Positions 1 through 13,432 of a stretch of DNA of 64,000 nucleotides are shown here, piece by piece. The stretch comes from Caproiciproducens faecalis. Its GTDB lineage: Bacteria; Bacillota; Clostridia; Oscillospirales; Acutalibacteraceae. Position 1 is the first letter of the stretch. Each line of letters starts with the position of its first letter. The notes under the pieces are model-generated. The model searched no databases, was not told the DNA's origin, and was given only the letters and a program-made list of their open reading frames with translations. The translations under genes were made by a program, and so were the position numbers. The DNA lies in NCBI RefSeq assembly GCF_019448085.1, contig NZ_JAGFNZ010000001.1, forward strand, positions 62,001 through 126,000, written 5' to 3'.

Positions 1-1
1 C

Positions 2-856
2 AGGCCAAAACAGAAAGATCGCTTTGCTCTGAAGTGGCTAGGCTATTATGTAAACCATCGTGTTTACCATGATCAGTTGCTGCCCTTTGTCACCGGCATT
101 AAGGTTTCTTCTATATCAAAAGGGGCTATAGCTGATACGGTTATTGCCATACCAAAAAAAGATGAGCAAAAACACATTGTTGAGGTACTCTCTGATATGG
201 ACAATCTCATTATTAGCCTTGAAGAACTTATTGTAAAAAAGAAGGCTATTATGGAAGGCGCAATGCAAGAGCTGTTGACAGGCCAGTGCCGACTTCCGGG
301 ATTTGAGGGAGAGTGGAAGAACTTTGCTCTCAGTGACGTTGCCACAATCGTGATGGGACAGTCGCCAGATTCAAAATATTATAACGAAGTGCAAGGAACT
401 CCCCTTGTTCAGGGAAATGCAGATATAGAGAACAGGAAAACCATTATTCGTTTTTACACTACTTGTGTTACAAAGCAAGCATACAAAGGCGATATTATTT
501 TTACAGTTCGCGCACCCGTTGGGAATGTTGCACATGCGACATTTGACTGTTGTCTTGGCAGAGGTGTGTGTGCCTTTAGAAATGCATCGCAGTTTCTATA
601 CCACCTTTTAGTATACAAACAAGAATCTTGGTCGGAACTGTCAACAGGATCAACGTTTGATTCTATTAACTCAGATAATTTAAGTAAAGTAGAGTTCAAT
701 ATGCCAATAGATGAGGGTGAACGCGATGCTATCGCTGAGGTGCTAACCTCTATGGATTCCGAAATAGAATCCCTTCAGTTAAAACTTGAAAAATACAAAA
801 AAATGAAATCTGGCATGATGGATGAGCTTCTCACCGGAAAGGTCAGGTTAGTGTAA
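2..856 (+). CDS. hsdS: Type I restriction-modification specificity subunit HsdS, 5' truncated by window edge
   Basis: The frame is open to the first base of the window, so the N-terminal part (first target recognition domain) is missing. What is left reads as the end of TRD1 and the central conserved helix (PKKDEQKHIVEVLSDMD then a Lys/Glu-rich coiled segment ending ELLTGQCRLP), then TRD2 starting near EWKNFALSDVATIVMGQSP, then the second conserved repeat (EVLTSMDSEIESLQLKLEKYKKMKSGMMDELLTGKVRL). The duplicated L-(T/S)-x-MD...LLTG(K/Q)-x-RL segments are the hallmark of HsdS, which chooses the DNA target for both methylation and cleavage. hsdR follows 15 bases downstream. The hsdM gene is not in the window and presumably lies upstream. 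Family assignment is secure; the target sequence cannot be read from this. Confidence 0.93.
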   Translation, partial: RPKQKDRFALKWLGYYVNHRVYHDQLLPFVTGIKVSSISKGAIADTVIAIPKKDEQKHIVEVLSDMDNLIISLEELIVKKKAIMEGAMQELLTGQCRLPGFEGEWKNFALSDVATIVMGQSPDSKYYNEVQGTPLVQGNADIENRKTIIRFYTTCVTKQAYKGDIIFTVRAPVGNVAHATFDCCLGRGVCAFRNASQFLYHLLVYKQESWSELSTGSTFDSINSDNLSKVEFNMPIDEGERDAIAEVLTSMDSEIESLQLKLEKYKKMKSGMMDELLTGKVRLV

Positions 857-871
857 AAGGAGGAATAGTAG

Positions 872-3800
872 ATGAGTATTGGCGAGCCTGAAAAAATTAC
901 ACAAGCAAAGGTCACGGGTTTCTTCAAAGACAGAGAAATTTTGGATTACACTTACTTAGGCAATTTGGAAGATAAGGCAAACGCGAATATCAAAGAAGAC
1001 CTTTTACGCGCTTATCTCCATTCCTGTGGTTACGATCAAGTACTGATTGATGGCGCTGTGAATCAACTTGTCAAAGCGGCAGGAGATATGACTCGCGGTA
1101 TTTATGATGCAAATAAGACCGTCTATTCACTACTGAAGTACGGCGCAAAAGTGAGGCCATCACCGGAGATGGCACCTAAGACGGTTTATTTCCTGGATGC
1201 CGACCACCCGACAAACAACCATTTCGCAATTGCTGAAGAGGTAACGATTGTTATGACGCAAGAAAAGCGTCCGGACATTGTTATTTATCTGAACGGCATC
1301 GCTGTTGCGGTTATTGAGCTTAAAAAGAGCAGCGTCTCTGTTTCCACCGGTATCCGACAAAATCTTACCAATCAGAAGGACAGCTTCATCCAGCCATTTT
1401 TTTCTACGGTGCAGTTCTGCATGGCAGGCAACGAGACCGAAGGACTGCGTTATGGCACTTTGCTGACAAAAGAAAAGTTTTATCTGGAATGGAAGCCAGA
1501 TGGTTTCCATGACCATAAGGATGAGCGCACTGAAACCGACATCCGTATTGATGACGAGTGTGCAAAAATTAGTAATAAACTTCTGCGCCAGCTCTATGCC
1601 ATGTTTGATAAGGAACGGTTCATAGACCTGATTGAGAACTTTATCGTCTTTGATAAGGGAATTAAAAAAGTATGTCGCTATAACCAGTATTATGGAATCA
1701 AGCGGGCACAGATGCGCCTTGCCAAAGATAAGGGTGGTATCATTTGGCATACCCAGGGAAGTGGTAAGACTCTGACAATGGTCTGGCTCTCTAAGTGGTT
1801 GTTAGCACACGGTTACGGCAAAAATCCGCGTGTGCTGATTGTTACCGATAGAGATGAATTAGACGAGCAAATTGAAAAGACATTCAAAGGGGTCGACGAA
1901 AGCATCACCAGAACTACAAGCGGTCAAGATTTGATTGATAAACTAAATTCTTATGATGATTCACTTATTTGCTCCCTTGTCCATAAGTTCGGCAAGCGAG
2001 GCGGTGAAGCATCGGAAGCCGACTATGATAAATTTATCGAGGAAATTATGAAGAGCTTGCCGGAAAGCTTCGAAGCCAAGGGTAAGCTGTATGTATTTGT
2101 CGATGAATGTCACAGGACTCAGTCTGGCAAGTTGCACGGCGCTATGAAAGCGATTATGCCGAAAGCTATCTTTGTTGGTTTCACCGGTACCCCACTGTTG
2201 AAAAAGGATAAAAAGACCAGCATTGAAGTGTTCGGCCCGTATATCCATGCTTACAAATATGATGAAGCTGTACGAGATGGAGTTGTTCTGGATTTACGCT
2301 ATGAATACCGCGATATTCCTCAAGACCTTTCTTCACAAGATAAAGTCGATCTATGGTTTGATACAAAGACAAGAGGTCTTTCTCCACGCGCCAAGGCGAA
2401 GCTAAAGGAGAAATGGGCTACAATGCAGAAGGTTTACAGCTCCCGCTCTCGCCTTGAGAAAATCGCATGGGACATCATTGAGGACTTTGACCTGAAGCCA
2501 CGTCTCATGGATGGTAACGGCAATGCCATTCTCGTTGCTGATTCCATATATTCTGCGTGTAAATATTATGAGATATTCCAGAGTAGAGGTTTTAAGAAGT
2601 GCGCGATCATTTCTTCCTACACACCGAATGTGGGTGATTTACGTACAGATACCGTCAGCGATGAAGATGATACAGAGACCTTTGAAAAATACGAGATCTA
2701 TCTGAAGATGTTGGGTCTTGACCCTGAAAATCTTCCGGAGAAGTTTTCCATACAGAAGCGTGTTGAGGATTTCGAGGAAGAAGCAAAGCGCAAGTTTGTA
2801 GAAGAGCCCGCAAATATGAAGTTGCTAATCGTTGTGGACAAGCTTTTGACCGGTTTTGATGCTCCACCTTGCACATATCTTTATGTGGATAAGAGCATGC
2901 AGGATCATGGCCTTTTCCAAGCCATCTGCCGTGTAAATCGTCTGGATAACGACAGTGACAGCAAGGATTTCGGCTATATCGTTGACTACAAGCAACTCTT
3001 TGGCGACTTGAAGTCTGCAATGGATACATATACTTCTGGTGCCCTCTCCGGTTATGATGAAGTAGATGTCGCCGGTCTGATTAAGGACCGCGGCAAGGAA
3101 GCTATCGCGTATTTCAAAGAGACTTATGACGAACTGGAAGAACTGTGCGAAGGAGTCGAGGAGCCGCGCGAAGATATCCAGTATCTCCATTATTTCTGCG
3201 GCGCATCTGGCACCGACGAAGAGACACAGGAAATTTATGCCCGCATGAGAGAAAAACTTTACCGTCTAGTCAGCCGCCTCGTACGTGCTTATGCAGAAGC
3301 GAAGCCGTATCTCACGGAGGTGTACACATCAACCGAAATTAATGCTTATGAGGATAGGGTCCGTTTCTATATTGAGCTTAAGCAGGCTATCGGTAACGAC
3401 AGCGGCGACTTCCTCGATTTTAAAGCATATGAGCCGGATATGCGTAAGCTTATAGACAACTATATCATTGCCTCTGAGAGCGTAAAAATCGGTGACTTTG
3501 ATGATCTTACCTTGCTGGACTTTATTAAGAACAAGGGTAAAGATCTCGACGATGATGATAAGCCAAAGAGCACTAAAGATGGTGCCGCAGAGGCTATTGA
3601 AAACAATATTCGTCGTAAGATCGTGGAGAAAGTCACGGTTAATCCGAAATACTACGATAAGATGTCTGCAATTCTTGACAAGCTGATCGAACAGAGACAT
3701 CAAGGCGTTATAGCATATTCTGAGCAGCTTGCCCTCTACATTAAGTTGGCAAAAAATGTTGAACACCCGGAAGAAAATGAGGATTATCCTGAAAGTATCC

Positions 3801-4018
3801 GTAATAGTCGGGCATTGCAGGCAATTTATGATAATGTTGGTGAAAACGAGGAACTTGCAATTAGAATCCATAAAGCTGTGCTCAAAAGCAAGTTGCCTGG
3901 ATTTAGAGGAGACTCTGTTAAAGAACATAAAATTCAACGTGAACTGTTTCGGGTCCTAAATGATGATGATGAAGTAGCGCGCATCTTTAAGATTATCAAA
4001 AAGCAGGAGGAATATTGA
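872..4018 (+). CDS. hsdR: Type I restriction enzyme R subunit HsdR
   Basis: This 1048-residue protein has the usual HsdR length and layout. An N-terminal PD-(D/E)xK nuclease core has D135 and E149-x-K151 (RPDIVIYLNG... VIELKKS). The SF2 translocase follows, with Walker A HTQGSGKT at 293-300, a DECH box at 411-414 and the FTGTPL motif III near 438. A helical C-terminal domain that would contact HsdM/HsdS completes it. It uses ATP to pull in DNA and cuts unmethylated targets away from the recognition site. The start is an ATG after AAAAGGAGGAATAGTAG. Its TGA overlaps the ATG of the next gene by one base (TGATG), which suggests coupled translation. Key residues look intact. Confidence 0.96.
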   Translation: MSIGEPEKITQAKVTGFFKDREILDYTYLGNLEDKANANIKEDLLRAYLHSCGYDQVLIDGAVNQLVKAAGDMTRGIYDANKTVYSLLKYGAKVRPSPEMAPKTVYFLDADHPTNNHFAIAEEVTIVMTQEKRPDIVIYLNGIAVAVIELKKSSVSVSTGIRQNLTNQKDSFIQPFFSTVQFCMAGNETEGLRYGTLLTKEKFYLEWKPDGFHDHKDERTETDIRIDDECAKISNKLLRQLYAMFDKERFIDLIENFIVFDKGIKKVCRYNQYYGIKRAQMRLAKDKGGIIWHTQGSGKTLTMVWLSKWLLAHGYGKNPRVLIVTDRDELDEQIEKTFKGVDESITRTTSGQDLIDKLNSYDDSLICSLVHKFGKRGGEASEADYDKFIEEIMKSLPESFEAKGKLYVFVDECHRTQSGKLHGAMKAIMPKAIFVGFTGTPLLKKDKKTSIEVFGPYIHAYKYDEAVRDGVVLDLRYEYRDIPQDLSSQDKVDLWFDTKTRGLSPRAKAKLKEKWATMQKVYSSRSRLEKIAWDIIEDFDLKPRLMDGNGNAILVADSIYSACKYYEIFQSRGFKKCAIISSYTPNVGDLRTDTVSDEDDTETFEKYEIYLKMLGLDPENLPEKFSIQKRVEDFEEEAKRKFVEEPANMKLLIVVDKLLTGFDAPPCTYLYVDKSMQDHGLFQAICRVNRLDNDSDSKDFGYIVDYKQLFGDLKSAMDTYTSGALSGYDEVDVAGLIKDRGKEAIAYFKETYDELEELCEGVEEPREDIQYLHYFCGASGTDEETQEIYARMREKLYRLVSRLVRAYAEAKPYLTEVYTSTEINAYEDRVRFYIELKQAIGNDSGDFLDFKAYEPDMRKLIDNYIIASESVKIGDFDDLTLLDFIKNKGKDLDDDDKPKSTKDGAAEAIENNIRRKIVEKVTVNPKYYDKMSAILDKLIEQRHQGVIAYSEQLALYIKLAKNVEHPEENEDYPESIRNSRALQAIYDNVGENEELAIRIHKAVLKSKLPGFRGDSVKEHKIQRELFRVLNDDDEVARIFKIIKKQEEY

Positions 4019-6591
4019 TGCAGATTGTCATTTCGGGAATCCCGATTAATGTGCAAAAAAAGAATATAAAGAACATGCATCTGTATGTCAAACCTCCAGA
4101 TGGGCATGTCATTATTTCTGCACCTCTTACTATGGATGATAAAGCGATAGAAGTCTATGCCCGCACAAATGTAAGCTGGATAAAAAAGCAGATTCGGAAG
4201 TTTCAGGAACAGCCTCGAAGCGGTAAACGCCAGTATGTTTCTGGCGAAACCATCTATATCTGGGGAAAACAGTATTTCATAAAGTTCGTGCCAGACAGTA
4301 AAAAGAATAGTTTTGCCCTTCAAGGAGATCATGTTATTCTCTCAATGAGTAATGAAAGTACTGTCAAGCAGCGTGAGAATTATATTCACGAGCAATATCG
4401 CATTCTTTTAAAGCAGGAGATTGAGCGTCTGTTGCCAAAGTGGGAGCAGATTACGGATCTTCATTGTGAAAGCTGGCAGACAAAGTATATGGTCACCCGC
4501 TGGGGCACCTGTAACACAGAAAAGAAAAAGCTGTGGTTTAATCTACAGTTGGCCCAGAAGCCAATTGAGTGCCTAGAATTCGTTATCCTGCATGAGCTGA
4601 TACATCTTCGGTCCCGAAAGCATGATGCTACGTTTATTGAATACATGGATTTGTATATGCCGAACTGGAGAGATATTCGCAACGAACTGAATGAGCGTAA
4701 GCTGGATTATTATGATGCACACGATGAAAGTCCACTCAAAAAGTTGATCAACACCGAGCGGTATGATGAAATCAAGGACGCCGCTCTCGCTTATTTGGAA
4801 ACAGATCCAGAACTTGATAAAAAAAAGTACAATGTGGCGCTCTCAGATATCGAGATAGAAAACGTCGTACATATCGAGCAGCCATACGAAGGCACTATTG
4901 CTTTTGATGTTATTGTTTCATGTGATGTTGAGTCAATTGATCGTAATGGAAAGGGACAACCATATTTTTCCGAGAAATGGTTGAGCATTCATTGTGAGGT
5001 TTCCATTGGTATCGAGCTCTCTAATTTCTCGATTGTAAATGTCGGCAAATGCGAGGTTCAGGAAGAAAACGGAAATGACCGTTTTTCCGGGGAGCTTGTT
5101 CCAATTATTACTCGTGATGATTTTGATCAGGAAGCAACGCTTTTCCTTGAAAAATTCTATCCCGACGCCTTAGAAAAACCGGTGCCAGTTCCTATCAGGC
5201 AAATTGCAGAGAATATGAATCTCACTATAATCGAGGATACACGGCTTTCAGAAGAACTCTCTATCTTTGGTATGGTCGTGTTTGAGGACGGCAATATCGG
5301 TGGGGCCAACAAAGATGTACTAGTGCGTAAAGCAAAACGCGGGACCATGTATATAGACCCGCGCGTATATTATGAAAAAACTTATGGCACCGCCAACAGT
5401 ACCATAGCTCATGAGTGTTATCACTGGTACAGGCATCGACCATACCACGCCCTCATGAAGATGATTGGTGCCAAGGATGATGTTGGGAAAGTAATACAGT
5501 GTGCTATCCAAGCAAATAACAAAGACACCGAAAAGTGGAAAGCTATAGACTGGATGGAATGGCAAGCTAATAGTGTAGTTCTTAACATCTTGATGCCTTA
5601 TCAGACATGCAGAATCGTAATTGATAAGCTTCTAAAAGAGTATGTTGAATCAGTGGAAGAAGCATATAAACAGCAAGGCTTGGAAACCGTTATCGATAGA
5701 GTTGGCGAGTACTACGGCGTATCGCGACAAGCTGTAAAAACTCGTATGCGTCAGTTGGGATACTCCATCATTGATGGTGTTTACACATATGTAAACGGTC
5801 ATTACATTCCGCATTTTTCTTTCAATGCGGAAGCTGTCGGCAGAAATCAGACCTTTACAATTTCTGCTACAGACTTATTCAAAGCGTACTGCTGTAGCAA
5901 GGAATTCAGAAAAATTATTGATTCTGGAAATGTTGTCTATGTCGATGGTCACCTCTGCGTAAACAAACCAGAATATGTGGAGATAGGTGACGACGGCACT
6001 TGTCATATGACAAAATATGGGCTGGCCCATGTAGACGAGTGCTGCTATTTATTTGATCTTGGCTATACATACGAGTCTAAATACCAGGGACTAAAAACTT
6101 ACGCTCAATTCCTGACAAAAACAAATCCGCAACTGTCAGCCCGTGAGTGTTCTTATGACCCGACAAACGTGCATAACCAGGCGTTGAACGCCTTGATGGA
6201 CAATGCGCCTCAGCGGTCTAATGCGCTTCGAAGGTATCCAGGGTCGTTTGCTGAAACCTTGGTACAGTTGATGAATGAACGTCATTTGTCAAATAAAAAG
6301 CTTGCTGACTTATCTCTTGTTGGAGAGAAGACAATCCAGCGCATACGCAATGATGAGGAATATCCGACATCAAAACAGACAGTGCTTGGGCTTTGTGTCG
6401 GCTTGAAATTATCGCCAGCTGAGGCTGAAGATTTTTTCGCTAAATCTGATTTTAAGTTAAATACTACAAAAACGGAAGACTACATATATAAGTGTATTCT
6501 TGGCTCGTGTGCTGTAAACTCAATTTATGCAATAAATGAAATGTTAGAAGCACATGGGGTTCCGCAATTGGGTAGTAGCTCGCAGGAGTAA
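4018..6591 (+). CDS. Two-metalloprotease fusion: YgjP/M48-like domain + ImmA/IrrE-like domain + HTH
   Basis: Residues 1 to about 235 match the YgjP (DUF45, M48-like) family: WGTC followed by LWFNLQLAQKP and HELIH at 192-196 with a downstream H-D-A-T-F. After a poorly recognised linker, a second zinc-protease core appears: HECYH at 465-469 and a WMEWQANSVVLNILMP helix typical of ImmA/IrrE peptidases, followed by a winged-helix-like segment (YYGVSRQAVKTRMRQLGY). The C-terminal 120 residues hold an XRE-like helix-turn-helix (NKKLADLSLVGEKTIQRIRN). YgjP-like proteins often sit beside hsdR, and ImmA-type proteases cleave repressors in mobile elements; a repressor-cleaving or damage-sensing role here is inference. 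I chose ATG 4018 over the in-frame TTG at 4015 because AGGAGG at 4005 is well spaced and the ATG overlaps the hsdR stop. The domain calls are firm; the function is unknown. Confidence 0.85.
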   Translation: MQIVISGIPINVQKKNIKNMHLYVKPPDGHVIISAPLTMDDKAIEVYARTNVSWIKKQIRKFQEQPRSGKRQYVSGETIYIWGKQYFIKFVPDSKKNSFALQGDHVILSMSNESTVKQRENYIHEQYRILLKQEIERLLPKWEQITDLHCESWQTKYMVTRWGTCNTEKKKLWFNLQLAQKPIECLEFVILHELIHLRSRKHDATFIEYMDLYMPNWRDIRNELNERKLDYYDAHDESPLKKLINTERYDEIKDAALAYLETDPELDKKKYNVALSDIEIENVVHIEQPYEGTIAFDVIVSCDVESIDRNGKGQPYFSEKWLSIHCEVSIGIELSNFSIVNVGKCEVQEENGNDRFSGELVPIITRDDFDQEATLFLEKFYPDALEKPVPVPIRQIAENMNLTIIEDTRLSEELSIFGMVVFEDGNIGGANKDVLVRKAKRGTMYIDPRVYYEKTYGTANSTIAHECYHWYRHRPYHALMKMIGAKDDVGKVIQCAIQANNKDTEKWKAIDWMEWQANSVVLNILMPYQTCRIVIDKLLKEYVESVEEAYKQQGLETVIDRVGEYYGVSRQAVKTRMRQLGYSIIDGVYTYVNGHYIPHFSFNAEAVGRNQTFTISATDLFKAYCCSKEFRKIIDSGNVVYVDGHLCVNKPEYVEIGDDGTCHMTKYGLAHVDECCYLFDLGYTYESKYQGLKTYAQFLTKTNPQLSARECSYDPTNVHNQALNALMDNAPQRSNALRRYPGSFAETLVQLMNERHLSNKKLADLSLVGEKTIQRIRNDEEYPTSKQTVLGLCVGLKLSPAEAEDFFAKSDFKLNTTKTEDYIYKCILGSCAVNSIYAINEMLEAHGVPQLGSSSQE

Positions 6592-6716: not shown

Positions 6717-7712
6717 ATGAATAGCAACGAAGAAAAGCGAGTGTGGGGTATCCATACTATGAATGATGCCCTTTTCTTAAATGATAATGTTATTGCTATT
6801 GGTTGGAGAGAGATGGGTGATTTAAAGCAAATCGAAGGAAACAGAGAAGCGTTTAAAGAGCGTTATAACAAGGTATATCCTGATTCAAAAAAAGGTGCTG
6901 TAGCAAATGGCGTGGGAATGCTATACCGTTTTGTTTATGATGTGCAAATTGGAGATTACGTTGTCTTCCCGTCCAAAATAGATCGCCAAATAAATATTGG
7001 TACCGTTGAGAGCGATTATATATACAATCCGAATGCAGAAGAATATGTTCAGCAGCGTAAAGTAAAATGGCTGAAACATCTTCCTAGAACGTCATTTTCA
7101 CAAGGAGCTTTGTATGAAGTCGGTTCTGCAATGTCTTTTTTTGCAGTAAAGAACTATGCCGATGAGTATTTAGGTGCGTTAGATAAAAGTTTCAAAAAGG
7201 CTGTAATTTCGTCAGAAGACGATGAAAGTGTCGGGGCTACAGCAGATGACATAGTTGAAACTACAAAAGACTATATACTCAAAGTATTAAGTAAGAATCT
7301 TAAGGGATATGAACTTGAAGAATTTGTTGCTGATTTATTGACCGCGATGGGATACCGGACGTCAATTTCGGCTCATGGCGGTGATAGCGGAATTGATATA
7401 ACAGCATACAAAGATGAGTTGCCTCCTCGCATTTTAGTGCAGGTCAAAAGCCAGGATGGAGATATAAAAGAAACAACCATTCAATCGCTAAAGGGCGCAA
7501 TGCGAGAGGGAGACTATGGGTTGTTCGTTACATTGTCTAATTACACGAAAAACGCGCAGAAGTATCTTGATAGCGTACCGATTATTCGCGGTATTAATGG
7601 AACCGAACTTGTGGATCTAATTCTGAAGTATTATGGGAACCTAAGTGAGAAATATAGACGAATGATCCCACTGAAGATGGTATATATACCAATGCCTAAC
7701 GATAAAGAGTAA
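6717..7712 (+). CDS. Mrr-type restriction endonuclease with N-terminal reader-like domain
   Basis: The C-terminal half is an Mrr_cat PD-(D/E)xK nuclease. It has the ELEEFVADLLTAMGY helix, D227 in GDSGIDI, and Q242-x-K244 in ILVQVKSQ, where Gln replaces the usual Glu as in many Mrr proteins. The first 150 residues (WGIHTMNDALFLNDNVIAIG, later QIGDYVVFPSK) match the N-terminal domain found on many Mrr-like enzymes, which is thought to recognise modified DNA. A role in cutting foreign modified DNA is therefore likely but not shown. The start ATG follows GGATAAGGAGGACTTATT. It lies in the same direction as hsdR, 125 bases after the protease fusion; the gap holds only a weak 7-bp AT-rich hairpin (6648-6667). 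Confidence 0.85.
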   Translation: MNSNEEKRVWGIHTMNDALFLNDNVIAIGWREMGDLKQIEGNREAFKERYNKVYPDSKKGAVANGVGMLYRFVYDVQIGDYVVFPSKIDRQINIGTVESDYIYNPNAEEYVQQRKVKWLKHLPRTSFSQGALYEVGSAMSFFAVKNYADEYLGALDKSFKKAVISSEDDESVGATADDIVETTKDYILKVLSKNLKGYELEEFVADLLTAMGYRTSISAHGGDSGIDITAYKDELPPRILVQVKSQDGDIKETTIQSLKGAMREGDYGLFVTLSNYTKNAQKYLDSVPIIRGINGTELVDLILKYYGNLSEKYRRMIPLKMVYIPMPNDKE

Positions 7713-7782: not shown

Positions 7783-8694
7783 GTGAAAATATACGTTGGA
7801 ATAACCGATAAAGATTGGTATGAGCAACTTAAAGCTCAGAAACCAGAAGAGGTGAATTTCTGGAAGCCAGGATCGAGTAATTTTAAAGCCCTAGAGCCCA
7901 ACGATATGTTTCTATTCAAATTACACCATCCTGCAAATTTTATCGTTGGAGGCGGTTTTTTTGTACGCTTTTCGCTATTACCTTCTTTCCTCGCATGGCA
8001 AGCTTTCGGAATGAAAAATGGTACAACCTCATATGAAGAGCTTCAGAAGAGAATAAAAAAATACCGTAGTCGTAATGGAATCAACAGTGATAACGCCCCA
8101 ATTGGGTGTATCATACTTACTGAGCCGTTCTTTTTTGACGAGCATGACTGGATTCCAGTGCCTATAGATTGGAATCCAAACATTGTACAAGGAAAGACAT
8201 ATGAAACAACCACGGAACTTGGCAATCACTTATATTGCCAGATTCACGAAAGGCTTCAGTTGTGCAATAATGCGAACTTCAATGATCAGAAATCAAGGTA
8301 TGCTGAATCATTGACTATGCACAGACTTGGTCAAGGCACTTTCAGGATAGTGGTGACAGAGGCCTATCAGCGTAGGTGTGCCATTACTGGAGAAAAAACG
8401 CTTCCTGTGCTAGAGGCTGCCCACATCAAACCCTTTTCTGAAAACGGGCCTCACGATATAAAGAACGGATTGCTTTTACGCTCCGATTTTCACACACTGT
8501 TTGATGATGGATACATAACGATAAACTCCGATTTTGTCATTGAGGTAAGCAAAAGGCTTAATGAGGATTATGGCAATGGAAAGGATTATTATAGATATCA
8601 TGGTAGTAAACTGCAGTCAATGCCGTCTTCATCAGTCGAGCTTCCCTCACAGGAATACATAATGTGGCATAACGAACATTGTTACAAAGGGTAA
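7783..8694 (+). CDS. HNH endonuclease with N-terminal PUA/EVE-like domain
   Basis: The C-terminal third carries an HNH_2-type site: RRCAITGE, then H214 in EAAHIKPF, N228 in KNGLLLRSDFH and H237 in FHTLFD. The N-terminal 150 residues (YVGITDKDWYEQL, KPGSSNFKALEPNDMFLFKL, IVGGGFF) resemble the PUA-like fold domains that read modified bases in modification-dependent restriction enzymes. The protein would thus bind modified DNA and nick or cut it with the HNH site. The GTG start is preceded by ATGAGAGGTG; no better ATG lies nearby. It sits 70 bases after the Mrr-type gene, so two reader-plus-nuclease proteins are side by side. The nuclease call is firm; the reader function is inference. Confidence 0.85.
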   Translation: MKIYVGITDKDWYEQLKAQKPEEVNFWKPGSSNFKALEPNDMFLFKLHHPANFIVGGGFFVRFSLLPSFLAWQAFGMKNGTTSYEELQKRIKKYRSRNGINSDNAPIGCIILTEPFFFDEHDWIPVPIDWNPNIVQGKTYETTTELGNHLYCQIHERLQLCNNANFNDQKSRYAESLTMHRLGQGTFRIVVTEAYQRRCAITGEKTLPVLEAAHIKPFSENGPHDIKNGLLLRSDFHTLFDDGYITINSDFVIEVSKRLNEDYGNGKDYYRYHGSKLQSMPSSSVELPSQEYIMWHNEHCYKG

Positions 8695-8842: not shown

Positions 8843-11800
8843 ATGAACGATAAAGTAACACACGCAATAGATACTATGAAAAAGGGCTATGCTCTTGACC
8901 CTAACCGCATATTAGCTGATTATAGAAAAGAAACGGCAGAAATTAGAGGGTATCATGGCCGTGAACTGTTAGAACTGCTCCAAAATGCAGTCGACGAACT
9001 CGGTGGAACAGATGACCGCTCTGTTGCTATAATATTAAAAGATAATGTGCTGACAATTAGTAATAACGGAAGCGTATTCACTTTTGAAGGCTTTATTTCG
9101 TTAATGTATTCGAACCTCAGTCCGAAGCACAATAAGAATGATTATATCGGCAATAAAGGTACAGGATTTCGCTCTATACTTAACTGGGCAGATCGTGTCC
9201 GCATTTATAGTGGTGATTTGTCTGTGGAATTTTCAGAAATCCATGCACGGGAAACGCTGACTGAGTTGCTTGAAAACGCTAATGTTGCTGAGTTTTGCAA
9301 AACACATGATGATGTACAGCTTGCGACACTCGTTGCACCTCGGTTGATTAAGCCTTTAAAAGACAAAGAATACGATACAGTAATTGAGGTCGCATTAAAA
9401 GATGACGTTGTTGATAAAGTGATAAGTCAGCTACAACAAATCAACTCAAAAACGCTTTTGTTTTTAGAAAAACTTGAGAAACTGACAATAGAATATAACG
9501 GAGAAATTTATATTTATAAAAAGATCATTTCTGAACGTGAAAACGGTATTAGAGACATACATATTACCACAACCAGAAATGGCGAGACCGTCGAAACAGA
9601 CGATTGGTCTATCCTATCTCGAGAGGGCATCTTTGAGAAGCAAAAATATGGCGTGATGGTCGCATTTAAAGAAGATATGTCTGTTGTTCCAGACGTTTTA
9701 TACAGTTACTTTAAGACAAAGGTACAATTCCCCGTTCATGCGCTTGTTCACGCAACGTTTGACCTAAACGCAGACAGAAATCACCTTAATGAAACAGAGG
9801 CGAATAAGTACATACTCAAAACTATTTGTGATACGCTAATTGAACTTGCACTACTGACAACTTCAGAGAGCGTGAATTATGCTCCTCTTGCCCTGCTTTC
9901 AACAATAAGAGATTTTCCTAATGAGTTAAGTTGGGACGATTTTTCTATTAGAGATTATTATCTTGAAGTGGTTGCTGCAAGCAAAGTATTTCCCACCATA
10001 GATAGCAAATATATATCGTTTGCTGAAAAGCCAAGATTTTATGATAGTAATATTGCCGATTTATTGAGCGGTGATGTATTTGCTACGTTAATGCCTCCAA
10101 CGGATAATATTTCTATAAGAGCTATGTTAAAATCCATTGCAAAGTATAAAAAAACAAGTTTGCGGTATCCATATGGCGAAATCACAACTGGCATCAATGT
10201 TGTTTTACCGTCGTTTCAAATCAAAGAGAGGGCAGCATTATGGCTTGCATTTATAAACGAATATAAGAATGATATTTCACCGGAAAATAAGCCGCATTTT
10301 GTGTTGGACAGTCGAGGTAATTCTGTAACTGACGATCAACAAGTATTTTTACCAGCAGAAAATGTTGAATTTTCCTCACCGCCTGATTTTACGAAAATTG
10401 TTTTTATGAATAAAGACCTCGTAAGTGCTTTGCGTGACCTACAAGGCAAAGAAAGCACATTAAGAGGTCTTGCCATTGAACTCTCGAAATTCAATGTTCG
10501 AGAATATAATCTTGCAAACATTATTAACGCGGTAATTTCTCGTTTAAAAAGCCGTACACATCAAACAAGCAAGAAAACACGCGGGTGTTACGAAGAAACT
10601 ATCGAGTGGCTATGGAAATTATGGAAAGCTAATGTTTTGAAAAACGAAATGGTTGCTTTAACAACAATTCCATTGATAAATCGTAAGGGTGAAGTTAAAA
10701 ACGCAAACGAATTATATTTTGGACAAGAGTTTGGCAACGCAATAACTGAAAATTTGTTTGATAAAAATGATGCCCTTTTTGTTTCAATACCAAAGCGAAT
10801 ATCTTTAACTGATTTGACAAAACAACAGTACATGGAATTTTTGACGGCGTTAGGTGTCTCCCAGTTTCCTCGAAAGACTAAAGTACAAATCCGTCCAGTT
10901 CCAGAAGCGTACAAAGAAATTATATACAGAAGTATAAAAAAATACCCGTTGCTCGCAGAGGACAATCGCTATAACAACGAACAAGAATTTCGCAACGCAA
11001 CTCTTAGATATGTTGAAATTGTTACTGTTGAACATCTTAATGAAATACTTGAAAAGGCAAATACCAAAAGCATAATCGATTGGATTCGACACGACGAGAA
11101 CCTTCGCCTCTTGCTATCCGAATATGAGCCAAGCACAAGCCGTGCTTATGTTGATAATTTGTATCAGCAAAAATTCAGAGCCATTAGCGGTGAGCAGTTA
11201 GCTTCATACCTTCATTTTACCTTTGCAACGAGCAAGTGGATAGAGGTTGATGGTATCAGGTATTCTCCGAAGCAGTGTTTATTGGTGAGTAAAGTCGGCA
11301 CATTATTTGCGCCAATAGTTGTCGCACCTAATTTGGACTTATTCATAGATAATCATAACCGCAAAATTTCGGAAACAAATGCTGTTCAGGATATTTTGGA
11401 ACAGATTGGTGTCGCGTCTGATTATTCAGTACTTGACACAGGAACACTTTATTCATTGTTGCTGGCAATACCCCAAGCCGACGAAAACGGTGATATAAGT
11501 AAGGCACTTTATACATCCATTTTAAAGTCTGGCGGTCTAAGAAATTTCGACCCTAACAACGGAAAATATCGTGAATTTTTACAAAACGGGAAGGTTTATT
11601 GCAAAACTTCAAAAACATATATGGCGATAAAGGATGTGCGCTATCTTAATGAAAAGACGGTAAGTCGTGAAATACTAAAGGATTTTAATTTGATTGCTAT
11701 ACCCAGCAGACAAAATCAAGAAAATATTAAGCGTTATTTTGGAGTGTCGTCATTAAAAATCAAAGGGTCTGTAGTCGGCGATCCGACAATTCACCCAGAG

Positions 11801-13432
11801 AGCGCTGCCTTTGAACAAGATTTTAATGATTTTATATGTTATGCTTTTTGCTCTCGCGTGGATAGCGCAAAGCAGAGTGAGATTTCCACCGTGAAGTCCT
11901 TGAAGGTTCGTTTGTGTACCAATATAAAAGCAGACTATGGCAAAGGAGAAGTTGAATTAGGTGAAAGCTCTTATATCAGGGGAAAAAACTGTGTTTATGT
12001 TCAAGCACCTAGAAATGGTGGTAATTTAAAGCAGCTAAAGAGTAATGTTGATTTCTGTTCCGCAATTGCCGAACTTTTTATGACAGCCATTGATATTCAG
12101 GATGACACTCTTTTCGGGTATGTACGCTCTTTATATGAGAAGGAGCCGCACAATCGCAATGCTTTAATCCTACACGATTATGATGATTTAAGCATTCTCG
12201 AAAGGTCTCGCGATGTCTTAAATCGCACACAATCAGAAAAGGAAATGTTTCTTTCAGCTTGCATCCTTATCGCCGGCGAAGATATCATTGCATCAATTGA
12301 AGCAGACATAGACTCAATAAACTTTGCTGATTTTAACTCAACGGCAAATGCGGGGGCGCTTATTAATATTTTAAGCAGACTAAATGTTGATATTGAATAT
12401 TTTAATGAAAAATCTGAAGTAAGCATAGACTTAACACCTTTTTATTTAGAGTGTTTACAAAAGAGGTCCAATGATGAATTCAATTCATATAAAAACGGAT
12501 TGTTTGCAATGCTAAAAAAAGAGTCCATTAGTGTACAACGTACATTCTTGAAACAATTGGATGCATACAAAATGTTTGTTTTCAACCCGCCTAACAGCAT
12601 CAATTACGATTGGAACGCTGAGTTTTTAAAGCACTTTGGAAATATAATTTCATCAGTGTCTAATGAGGACGCAAACTCGGCTTGGAAAACGAATAAGGAA
12701 ATTTTTGTGAAAGATAAAGATATGCTCATAGTTAACGATATGTTCGTTGATTCAGAATTGGAGAGCCTGTTGTACTTCGGCAATTTTGATGAGTTAAACC
12801 AGGCATACAACTCCAGAAAAACGGAGATTGATAATGCTAAGGCACATGAATCAAGAATATTAAGCGCTACGTCCGCGCCCCCCATCCCGATTATTTCGGT
12901 TGATGTTTCTGCTCCACCGAACAATATAAACAATAATACAGGGCATACAACCCGTTCTGGTAATCGCTTGGCGGGAATGAAGCGTGAACGCAATATATCA
13001 GATTGGGGAGCGTTTGCCGAGAAACTCGTATATGAACAAATGAAATCTGTTTTTCGGAATGTGGTATGGGTATCGGAGAACGCAAAAAAAGAAGGGGTCA
13101 ACCCTGATGGCATAGGTGGCTTGGGCTATGACCTCAAGTATTCTAATGAAAAAGGTGAAACCATTTATGTAGAAATAAAGTCTACTACCGGGACTGAAAT
13201 TGCATTTGTAATTACGGAAAATGAACTGAACTTTGCAGAAGCACATCCGCACCAATTTGAGGTCGTATTGGTTACTGCGTTAATGAATGCCAACGAAAGA
13301 AAGATTTATAGACTTGTAGGTTTATTTAATTATGCAGATGGCGAAGACCGTTTTTGTAACTCGAAGTTTAGCATCACGGGAGATAACTATACGGTACATT
13401 GTCAGATTGATTCGGGAAACAAAAATGCATAA
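8843..13432 (+). CDS. Giant GHKL-ATPase (sacsin-like) protein with C-terminal DUF3883/NOV_C domain
   Basis: This 1529-residue protein begins with a GHKL ATPase fold: the N box LLQNAVDE with N48 and E52, ISNNGSVF as the DxGxG-like segment, and a lid motif GNKGTGFRSI at 103-112. The long middle (about 350-1350) has no domain I recognise. The C-terminal 150 residues are a DUF3883 (NOV_C) domain, with EKLVYEQM, then D1430 in GYDLKYS and E1444-x-K1446 in VEIKST, a layout that resembles a PD-(D/E)xK nuclease core. Such sacsin-like ATPases occur in bacterial defence islands. The idea that it is an ATP-gated nuclease effector is inference. ATG 8843 follows TTAGGAGAATGTTTAA. The codon usage is AT-rich, like the rest of the island and unlike the genes after 16 kb. 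Confidence 0.82.
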   Translation: MNDKVTHAIDTMKKGYALDPNRILADYRKETAEIRGYHGRELLELLQNAVDELGGTDDRSVAIILKDNVLTISNNGSVFTFEGFISLMYSNLSPKHNKNDYIGNKGTGFRSILNWADRVRIYSGDLSVEFSEIHARETLTELLENANVAEFCKTHDDVQLATLVAPRLIKPLKDKEYDTVIEVALKDDVVDKVISQLQQINSKTLLFLEKLEKLTIEYNGEIYIYKKIISERENGIRDIHITTTRNGETVETDDWSILSREGIFEKQKYGVMVAFKEDMSVVPDVLYSYFKTKVQFPVHALVHATFDLNADRNHLNETEANKYILKTICDTLIELALLTTSESVNYAPLALLSTIRDFPNELSWDDFSIRDYYLEVVAASKVFPTIDSKYISFAEKPRFYDSNIADLLSGDVFATLMPPTDNISIRAMLKSIAKYKKTSLRYPYGEITTGINVVLPSFQIKERAALWLAFINEYKNDISPENKPHFVLDSRGNSVTDDQQVFLPAENVEFSSPPDFTKIVFMNKDLVSALRDLQGKESTLRGLAIELSKFNVREYNLANIINAVISRLKSRTHQTSKKTRGCYEETIEWLWKLWKANVLKNEMVALTTIPLINRKGEVKNANELYFGQEFGNAITENLFDKNDALFVSIPKRISLTDLTKQQYMEFLTALGVSQFPRKTKVQIRPVPEAYKEIIYRSIKKYPLLAEDNRYNNEQEFRNATLRYVEIVTVEHLNEILEKANTKSIIDWIRHDENLRLLLSEYEPSTSRAYVDNLYQQKFRAISGEQLASYLHFTFATSKWIEVDGIRYSPKQCLLVSKVGTLFAPIVVAPNLDLFIDNHNRKISETNAVQDILEQIGVASDYSVLDTGTLYSLLLAIPQADENGDISKALYTSILKSGGLRNFDPNNGKYREFLQNGKVYCKTSKTYMAIKDVRYLNEKTVSREILKDFNLIAIPSRQNQENIKRYFGVSSLKIKGSVVGDPTIHPESAAFEQDFNDFICYAFCSRVDSAKQSEISTVKSLKVRLCTNIKADYGKGEVELGESSYIRGKNCVYVQAPRNGGNLKQLKSNVDFCSAIAELFMTAIDIQDDTLFGYVRSLYEKEPHNRNALILHDYDDLSILERSRDVLNRTQSEKEMFLSACILIAGEDIIASIEADIDSINFADFNSTANAGALINILSRLNVDIEYFNEKSEVSIDLTPFYLECLQKRSNDEFNSYKNGLFAMLKKESISVQRTFLKQLDAYKMFVFNPPNSINYDWNAEFLKHFGNIISSVSNEDANSAWKTNKEIFVKDKDMLIVNDMFVDSELESLLYFGNFDELNQAYNSRKTEIDNAKAHESRILSATSAPPIPIISVDVSAPPNNINNNTGHTTRSGNRLAGMKRERNISDWGAFAEKLVYEQMKSVFRNVVWVSENAKKEGVNPDGIGGLGYDLKYSNEKGETIYVEIKSTTGTEIAFVITENELNFAEAHPHQFEVVLVTALMNANERKIYRLVGLFNYADGEDRFCNSKFSITGDNYTVHCQIDSGNKNA

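Follow-up and report, generated by a model that had tools for sequence, protein, structure and literature searches.

A YgjP-ImmA-helix-turn-helix fusion protein encoded after hsdR in a probable prophage, and a candidate operator for it at the predicted replication promoter

Introduction

What is the role of a single protein which carries two different zinc-protease sites and a DNA-binding domain, and whose gene is the last member of a type I restriction-modification (R-M) operon? This question is raised by a gene in a stretch of 64,000 nucleotides from Caproiciproducens faecalis (assembly GCF_019448085.1, contig NZ_JAGFNZ010000001.1, positions 62,001 to 126,000; the whole stretch is hereafter called the window). 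The gene (4018..6591, + strand) is a single open reading frame (ORF) of 857 amino acids (aa), in which a YgjP domain, a linker region, an ImmA/IrrE-like protease, a middle domain, an XRE-type helix-turn-helix (HTH) and a tail follow one another. A preliminary description of this gene, made from its sequence alone, had suggested that it could couple restriction to repressor cleavage or to a suicide response. The reading to which we incline is that of a restriction-linked ImmA/CapP-like switch that controls the replication of a prophage, with the YgjP part probably acting on HsdR complexes. It is supported at the sequence level by the two conserved catalytic sites, the operon, the prophage neighbourhood, a palindrome shared by the relatives and the geometry of a promoter. 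The new element in this work is that the HTH has a recognisable candidate operator, viz. this palindrome, which is located near -43 of the predicted promoter of the replication operon. The loci fetched for comparison are referred to by L-numbers, where position L003:10001 corresponds to base 1 of the window.

Results

Two conserved catalytic sites in a small family of fused proteins

The first domain of the protein (residues 21-226; 4078..4695, + strand) matches the Pfam family PF01863 with 183.8 bits (5.2e-54) against a cut-off of 26; of the earlier label "YgjP/M48-like", the YgjP part is therefore confirmed by Pfam and M48 is not the name that Pfam gives. The site follows the YgjP-type pattern HELIH-x5-H, with HELIH at residues 192-196 (4591-4605) and H202 as the likely third zinc ligand, and H192, E193, H196 and H202 are invariant in all 36 rows of the YgjP alignment (17 fused or short-fused proteins and 19 single-domain genes, one of which, in L024, lies beside a separate ImmA gene). 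The second protease domain, of ImmA/IrrE/CapP type (residues 362-600; 5101..5817, + strand), has HECYH at residues 465-469 (5410-5424) and, downstream of it, E514 (5557-5559), which is the putative ImmA-type zinc ligand. The PADLOC capP model matches residues 386-577 (2.8e-8). The Pfam family Peptidase_M78 scores 16.7 bits (E 0.0064) on the window protein, below its cut-off of 22, and is matched at E <= 0.01 by 38 of 52 members of the ImmA alignment, at best with 7.4e-10. H465, E466, H469 and E514 are invariant in 59 of 59 rows of this alignment. Both of the motifs named in the preliminary description are thus present in one protein, and since both sites are invariant in the aligned relatives, both zinc sites are under selection. 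The C-terminal XRE/Cro-type HTH (residues 749-806; 6262..6435, + strand; recognition helix around GEKTIQRIRN) also agrees with that description: HTH_26 scores 19.6 bits in the whole protein and 22.0 bits, equal to the cut-off (22), in the C-terminal part alone, and the HTH profile matches HipB and C.BclI chains among solved structures at 2e-6 to 4e-6.

In a scan of genome contigs, 17 rows among the best 80 of 137 relatives span residues 1 to at least 853, and 15 of these 17 are, besides the window, single intact ORFs of 849-857 aa; L068 and the frameshifted L083 are broken copies of the full fusion. A frameshift or assembly artefact as the origin of the fusion is ruled out by these 15 other intact copies, and the fused protein is a small real family. 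Shortened forms are also seen: in L079-L081 the protein ends after the ImmA domain (581-628 aa) and lacks the HTH, in L084 the copy ends at the end of the contig, and L085 and L086 have YgjP only. The hosts of the fused copies include Clostridium rhizosphaerae, Lachnospiraceae, Ruminococcaceae, Erysipelotrichales and Olegusella (Actinomycetota), and viral contigs contribute two fusions (L218 and L219), each of them one ORF. Among the matches listed for 398 genomes of the family, the full fusion occurs in two (the window genome and G600), and among those listed for 398 genomes of the phylum in the window genome alone. A search of the open-access literature brought up no description of a YgjP-ImmA-HTH fusion, and no such described system had been known to the preliminary description either.

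In the YgjP tree, the fused clade comprises 18 rows with a support of 100/99, and L085 and L086, which are nested within it, are read as cases of secondary loss. A second clade of five rows (L024, L027, L049, L052 and L145; support 100/100) has YgjP and ImmA-HTH as tandem genes. Derivation of the fused form directly from the tandem form is not supported, since the tandem YgjP belongs to this different clade; the ImmA part of the tandem form is also separated by a long branch with full support in the Shimodaira-Hasegawa-like approximate likelihood ratio test (SH-aLRT; a quick method). Due to this, the pairing of YgjP with ImmA-HTH probably arose twice.

Association with hsdR

The operon has the order small 65-aa HTH gene, hsdM, hsdS, hsdR and fusion gene. 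The ATG of the fusion gene at 4018 shares the last base of the hsdR stop codon (AGGAGG...TGATG), and the upstream gene (872..4018, + strand; 1048 aa) is indeed hsdR, as had been stated, with matches to TIGR00348 (8.2e-153) and PADLOC REase_I. A survey of the fusion against type I systems, which had been proposed earlier, places the fusion directly after hsdR wherever the flank exists. More generally, the HsdR match ends at most 23 nt from YgjP in 34 of the 35 loci holding YgjP and ImmA together, some of which were fetched twice; the 35th (L069) has only 131 bases upstream. The repeated occurrence of this pairing after hsdR argues for a joint function. YgjP without ImmA also follows HsdR of the same kind often, though not always.

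The C-terminal part as a phage protein

Residues 241-850 match positions 8-625 of the 626 positions of phrog_4031 (9.2e-136), for which PHROGs gives an unknown function. Standalone proteins of this type (~620 aa) occur in phage, plasmid and chromosomal records. Of 59 fetched standalone loci, 33 have a match to an R-M query, 43 to a phage replication query, and 28 to both. The R-M cores beside the standalone ImmA-HTH gene vary, and they are either of type I or consist of a C5 methylase, an AAA protein and a LlaJI endonuclease, while a 65-aa excisionase-like HTH gene opens many such operons regardless of the core. In the phage record L145, hsdM, hsdS, hsdR, YgjP and ImmA-HTH are all separate genes, the last two of which overlap. 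HTH modules of the same kind are also found as a small gene just 5' of ImmA-HTH (e.g. L147), and a relative of the ImmA domain is encoded in 218 of 266 candidate viral stretches.

A candidate operator for the HTH

A palindrome of 17-18 bp is common to the regions upstream of hsdM in the fused loci (relaxed searches required at least 10 of 12 core matches). In the window's locus it lies between the divergent operons at L003:6551-6569 (contig positions 58,551-58,569), ~3.4 kb upstream of the window and 410 bp upstream of hsdM. Of the 16 fused loci with the HTH, 14 have two palindromes about 90 bp apart (99 in L065), and the window and L066 have one; as L148 is from the same genome as L078, this corresponds to two copies in 13 of 15 distinct loci, among which L083 is frameshifted and L084 is cut. 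No such palindrome is present upstream of hsdM in L079-L081, where the HTH is lost, or in L086, which lacks the ImmA-HTH half, and none of these four loci has a match to the sigma-like gene described below. The palindrome is also seen with the standalone proteins: in 70 distinct 3' flanks of those with a window-like helix (K or R at position 3, R at 7), two copies are present in 53, one in 8 and none in 9, and of these nine, L098, L106, L136, L147 and L259 have palindromes elsewhere in the locus.

When two copies are present, their spacing is phased. In 40 mutually dissimilar pairs taken from 87, the centres are separated by ~90 (6 pairs), 100 (9), 110 (5), 121 (9) or 131 bp (8), and by 141, 197 and 214 bp once each. 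The best period in a scan from 8 to 14 bp is 10.4 bp (R 0.67; Rayleigh ~2e-8 without correction for the choice of period; jitter test 0/5000). Such helical phasing is expected of two bound proteins which touch each other, and not of terminators.

The palindrome is further linked to the sequence of the recognition helix. Of 50 distinct helices of the form [KR][TQ][ILV]xR, 37 occur with the strict palindrome, as against 6 of 46 other helices (Fisher 1e-9). For helix classes other than that of the window, a palindrome in the same geometry, which was set from the first helix class, is found in 22 of 56 flanks versus 9% in shuffles. The clear palindromes among these are CCAACTC (tandem YgjP clade, 4/4, at +21), CGGAAGT (5 loci), CGGAACT (3), CGACAG (2) and CCGACTC (1). 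Based on this pattern, the HTH probably binds the palindrome.

Promoter geometry at the replication operon

The hsdMSR operon diverges from a prophage replication operon, which comprises a sigma-like gene, a DUF2800 nuclease, DUF2815 and a DNA polymerase. In 40 dissimilar loci, the best TATAAT-like hexamer after the sigma-proximal palindrome is at +22 in 30 and at +21 in 3, and the -10 at +22 was reached in 0 of 2000 circular shifts; for the far copy no peak in the -10 distance was found. The window palindrome has GATAAT at +22 as its only best offset, and the transcription start predicted from it lies 16 nt before a DUF2800 cis-regulatory RNA, the leader of the replication operon (L003:6344-6501, - strand; Rfam RF02960, 123 bits), which is about 50 bp from the palindrome. 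This RNA is present in one of seven further loci, and an Rfam search of the L105 leader gave no credible match.

A match to a -35 element is missing from these promoters (mean 2.07 of 6 at a 17-bp spacer, 27 sequences). The palindrome spans about -51 to -35 of the predicted promoter and is centred near -43, a position which would suit a repressor that covers the -35 as well as an activator that stands in for it. The CI protein of lambda at its own promoter is a precedent for placement of the activator type. The composite of palindrome and -10 upstream of the sigma-like gene is present in 22 of 40 modules with ImmA-HTH and in 4 of 30 without it (Fisher 0.0004). All four (L003, i.e. the window's own stretch, L177, L212 and L216) are truncated cassettes of type I or LlaJI, interrupted where the fetched stretch or the contig ends, and the 26 modules without the composite include two more truncated ones (L178 and L202). 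Comparison of canonical promoters between modules with and without ImmA-HTH showed no difference.

The probable prophage and other features of the locus

Upstream of the window are integrase, portal, major head protein and terminase genes, as well as tail-like genes (by eye), followed by replication genes on the minus strand, while beyond position 13432 the frames resemble ordinary chromosome (by eye). Due to these phage genes on one side and chromosome-like frames on the other, the first 13.4 kb of the window look like the right end of a prophage. Of the R-M genes, hsdM (L003:6961-9633), with type I methylase relatives, lies upstream of the window, and hsdS (L003:9627-10856), with type I specificity relatives, has its 3' part within it (1..856, + strand). 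Just 5' of the -35 of the hsdM operon there is an element AATATCAACAAATAACA..AAAC in L003, which is conserved in diverged fused loci and has a similar counterpart in L086, where ImmA-HTH is absent. After the fusion gene follow an Mrr-like gene of the candidate defence family PDC-S02 (6717-7712; 7.5e-137), a 77-78% identical copy of which is also present 3' of the fusion in L067 and L069, an HNH nuclease (7783-8694) with a weak, below-cut-off resemblance to a restriction enzyme for phosphorothioate DNA, and a TmtA/sacsin-like ATPase (8843-13432). Together with the R-M operon, these genes look like defence cargo at the right end of the prophage.

The remaining parts of the fusion protein are the most variable stretch, residues 244-362 (4747..5103, + strand), which has no Pfam match, the middle domain (5815..6237, + strand) with conserved H645, Y653, H671, E674, C675 and C676, and the C-terminal tail of the HTH module, residues 807-857 (6436..6588, + strand). 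In best segments, the variable stretch is 47-74% identical to L064-L068, versus 70-85% for the YgjP part, and it may be a sensor or target-recognition part. Searches of solved structures gave no credible match for the whole fusion protein or the YgjP part by sequence, and none below 0.2 for the ImmA profile. YgjP may be kin to DNA-dependent proteases such as Spartan, and the SprT match to the fusion protein is below its Pfam cut-off. Three other arrangements may be recorded. An HTH module of the same kind is located at the C-terminus of HsdR-like proteins in L090:6737-10708 and L417:4300-8421 (211 and 79 bits); in L088:9998-11434, by eye, the YgjP frame gives way beyond residue 189 to a helicase-like frame unrelated to it; and in a Streptococcus suis prophage (L144, MK359990) the standalone relative adjoins a stretch with IS1216 transposases and resistance genes.

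Discussion

These features can be put together as follows. The C-terminal part of the fusion is a phrog_4031 protein, in which a zinc protease resembling ImmA/CapP is combined in one chain with an XRE-type transcription factor. Its HTH would sit on the palindrome, whose end falls near -35 of the promoter predicted for the replication operon; in this operon a DUF2800 RNA leader precedes the sigma-like gene and those for the DUF2800 nuclease, DUF2815 and DNA polymerase. In most relatives a second palindrome lies 90-140 bp away on a constant helical phase, and the bound protein probably bridges both. In a quiet lysogen, the protein would keep the replication promoter in one state. Single-stranded DNA, exposed by DNA damage, by restriction cuts or during replication, is the signal suggested by analogy; in response to it the ImmA domain would be activated and would cleave the HTH module, in cis or between subunits, upon which the promoter would be released or switched; control may be by repression or by activation. 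Precedents are described for PprI and CapP, which cut their repressors once single-stranded DNA binds (PMC10904395, PMC13373217), and for ImmA, which cuts ImmR and thereby releases mobile elements (PMC10233336), and by analogy to these the HTH module is the expected target of the ImmA domain. The YgjP domain most likely removes or trims HsdR complexes, which would amount to restriction alleviation carried by a mobile R-M system. ClpXP is described as degrading the HsdR of assembled type I complexes, also on entry into a new cell (PMC12707154), and in view of this control YgjP is a natural candidate for exerting it from within the operon, with HsdR as its probable substrate. Of the two possibilities raised in the preliminary description, the coupling of restriction to repressor cleavage is thus supported in its direction, with the likely DNA target being the promoter of the replication operon and apparently not the restriction promoter. 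A broader proposal can also be made, viz. that proteins of the phrog_4031 family act at -43 of a promoter lacking a -35, as activators or repressors which cleave themselves with a built-in protease, that they bridge phased operators, that R-M cores are swapped between the front 65-aa HTH gene and the gene at the back, and that the fused YgjP adds control of HsdR, so that restriction breaks feed into the replication decision of the prophage; this we put forward as a tentative possibility.

Several observations weigh against the preferred reading. The window has one operator copy and not two, and 18 of the 40 ImmA-HTH modules lack the composite of palindrome and -10 at the thresholds used. Queries for the sigma-like gene, which is matched in 11 of the 16 fused loci with the HTH, found no neighbour of this kind in L067, L074, L076, L077 and L084. 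The streptococcal helix classes gave no convincing site, other inverted repeats there being terminator-like hairpins, and of 46 viral stretches with the palindrome, 39 show none of the queried genes. A tree test of helix class against palindrome is not significant (median p 0.5, from 4 independent pairs with support). The tests took shape as the data were inspected, and pairs and flanks were thinned by likeness of sequence and not by phylogeny. The palindrome pattern occurs 5 times in the host genome versus 6 for the control, and such simple counts are uninformative. Further, as L079-L081 retain YgjP and ImmA without the HTH, the protease must have another target in these loci. A run of T follows 53 of 114 copies of the palindrome, due to which some copies may also end transcripts.

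This last observation, together with the independent-pairs result and the location of the first copy within about 30 nt of the stop codon in most standalone loci, would be accounted for if the palindromes were terminators and the statistics a reflection of common descent, the fusion then being a defence-island accessory of unrelated function. However, the palindromes lie between two divergent operons in the fused loci with a sigma-like neighbour, the pairs are helically phased, a fixed -10 distance is seen for the sigma-proximal copy only, and the palindromes are specific for helix classes. In several standalone loci a separate terminator-like hairpin is also seen by eye between the two copies (intergenic regions of L105, L097, L141 and L147), and we regard this explanation as quite improbable. 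A different target is implied if the HTH sets the expression of its own hsdMSR operon, in the manner of an R-M controller or of RptR, with the proteases relieving this control on infection. The place of the window palindrome upstream of hsdM and the match of the HTH profile to the R-M controller C.BclI agree with such autoregulation, and RptR is described as a repressor of a type I R-M operon (PMC12255303). It appears unlikely, however. In standalone cassettes that run in the direction of the phage operon, the palindromes follow the ImmA-HTH gene at a distance of kilobases from the R-M promoter; the -10 at +22 is directed towards the sigma-like gene; and L086 keeps a similar hsdM promoter element without either ImmA-HTH or palindrome.

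Restriction alleviation could also be the whole function, with both proteases restraining HsdR upon entry of the mobile R-M system into a cell whose DNA is unmethylated, and DNA binding being secondary. YgjP lies directly after HsdR, with no ImmA seen in the fetched flank, in L013, L014, L017, L020, L021, L040 and L086; HsdR is a known target of ClpXP in type I systems; the forms without the HTH in L079-L081 would be understood; and in L090 and L417 the HTH module is fused to HsdR itself. However, LlaJI-type cassettes without a visible HsdR likewise have ImmA-HTH as their last gene, and ArdC is described as needing no catalytic site for antirestriction (PMC7213743); as a complete account we consider this doubtful. 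For abortive infection, in which one of the protease domains would be a toxic effector unleashed upon failure of restriction, the defence neighbours in the window (Mrr-like PDC-S02, HNH and TmtA) and the two catalytic sites in one protein can be cited. However, there is no match to a toxin family and the ImmA-HTH part belongs to a phage family which is often beside replication genes (43/59 standalone loci); no supporting evidence was found for the suicide response suggested earlier, and this alternative is very improbable.

The surroundings of the fusion, viz. the prophage, the operator and the replication operon, are of more interest than the fusion alone. A testable function is proposed for phrog_4031, a phage family without one, together with candidate DNA sites in several specificity classes. 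If the proposal is correct, prophages tie a defence system and the control of their own replication into one polypeptide, and a mobile type I R-M system would carry its own answer to the question of how it avoids cutting a new, unmethylated host.

Relationship to known systems

CapH and CapP resemble the present arrangement in that a protease of the ImmA/IrrE kind is paired with an HTH next to a defence operon, which in their case is a cyclic-oligonucleotide-based antiphage signalling system (CBASS) or other immune operon. However, in the present case the protease and the HTH are in one chain, with the HTH C-terminal and YgjP in front, the fusion is last and not first in its operon, and the candidate operator is at a phage replication promoter. 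A separate CapH-like repressor gene is absent from the adjoining genes, since Pfam gives no HTH match for hsdR or for the Mrr gene after the fusion. The controller (C) proteins of R-M systems are HTH regulators of R-M operons. They are without a protease and act on the R-M promoter; in the present case the palindrome lies between divergent operons, and the -10 at +22 faces the phage operon. RptR, likewise an HTH regulator tied to an R-M operon, is described as acting on the R-M promoter and as lacking a protease (PMC12255303). ImmR/ImmA of ICEBs1 and TnSmu1 and PprI(IrrE)-DdrO of Deinococcus resemble the fusion in that a zinc protease and a repressor govern a mobile element or DNA-damage genes; however, these are separate genes, and no link to R-M and no YgjP is described in the passages considered (PMC10233336, PMC10904395). 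With ArdC, a metalloprotease fold of a mobile element in conflict with type I restriction is shared, but its antirestriction is described as independent of the protease site, and a single-strand DNA binding domain takes the place of the HTH (PMC7213743). The YgjP-like (PF01863) genes after hsdR have the same domain in the same operon position, but in most of the present loci they are separate genes of ~220-290 aa. The fusion protein is thus a member of phrog_4031 over residues 241-850, to which a YgjP domain has been added.

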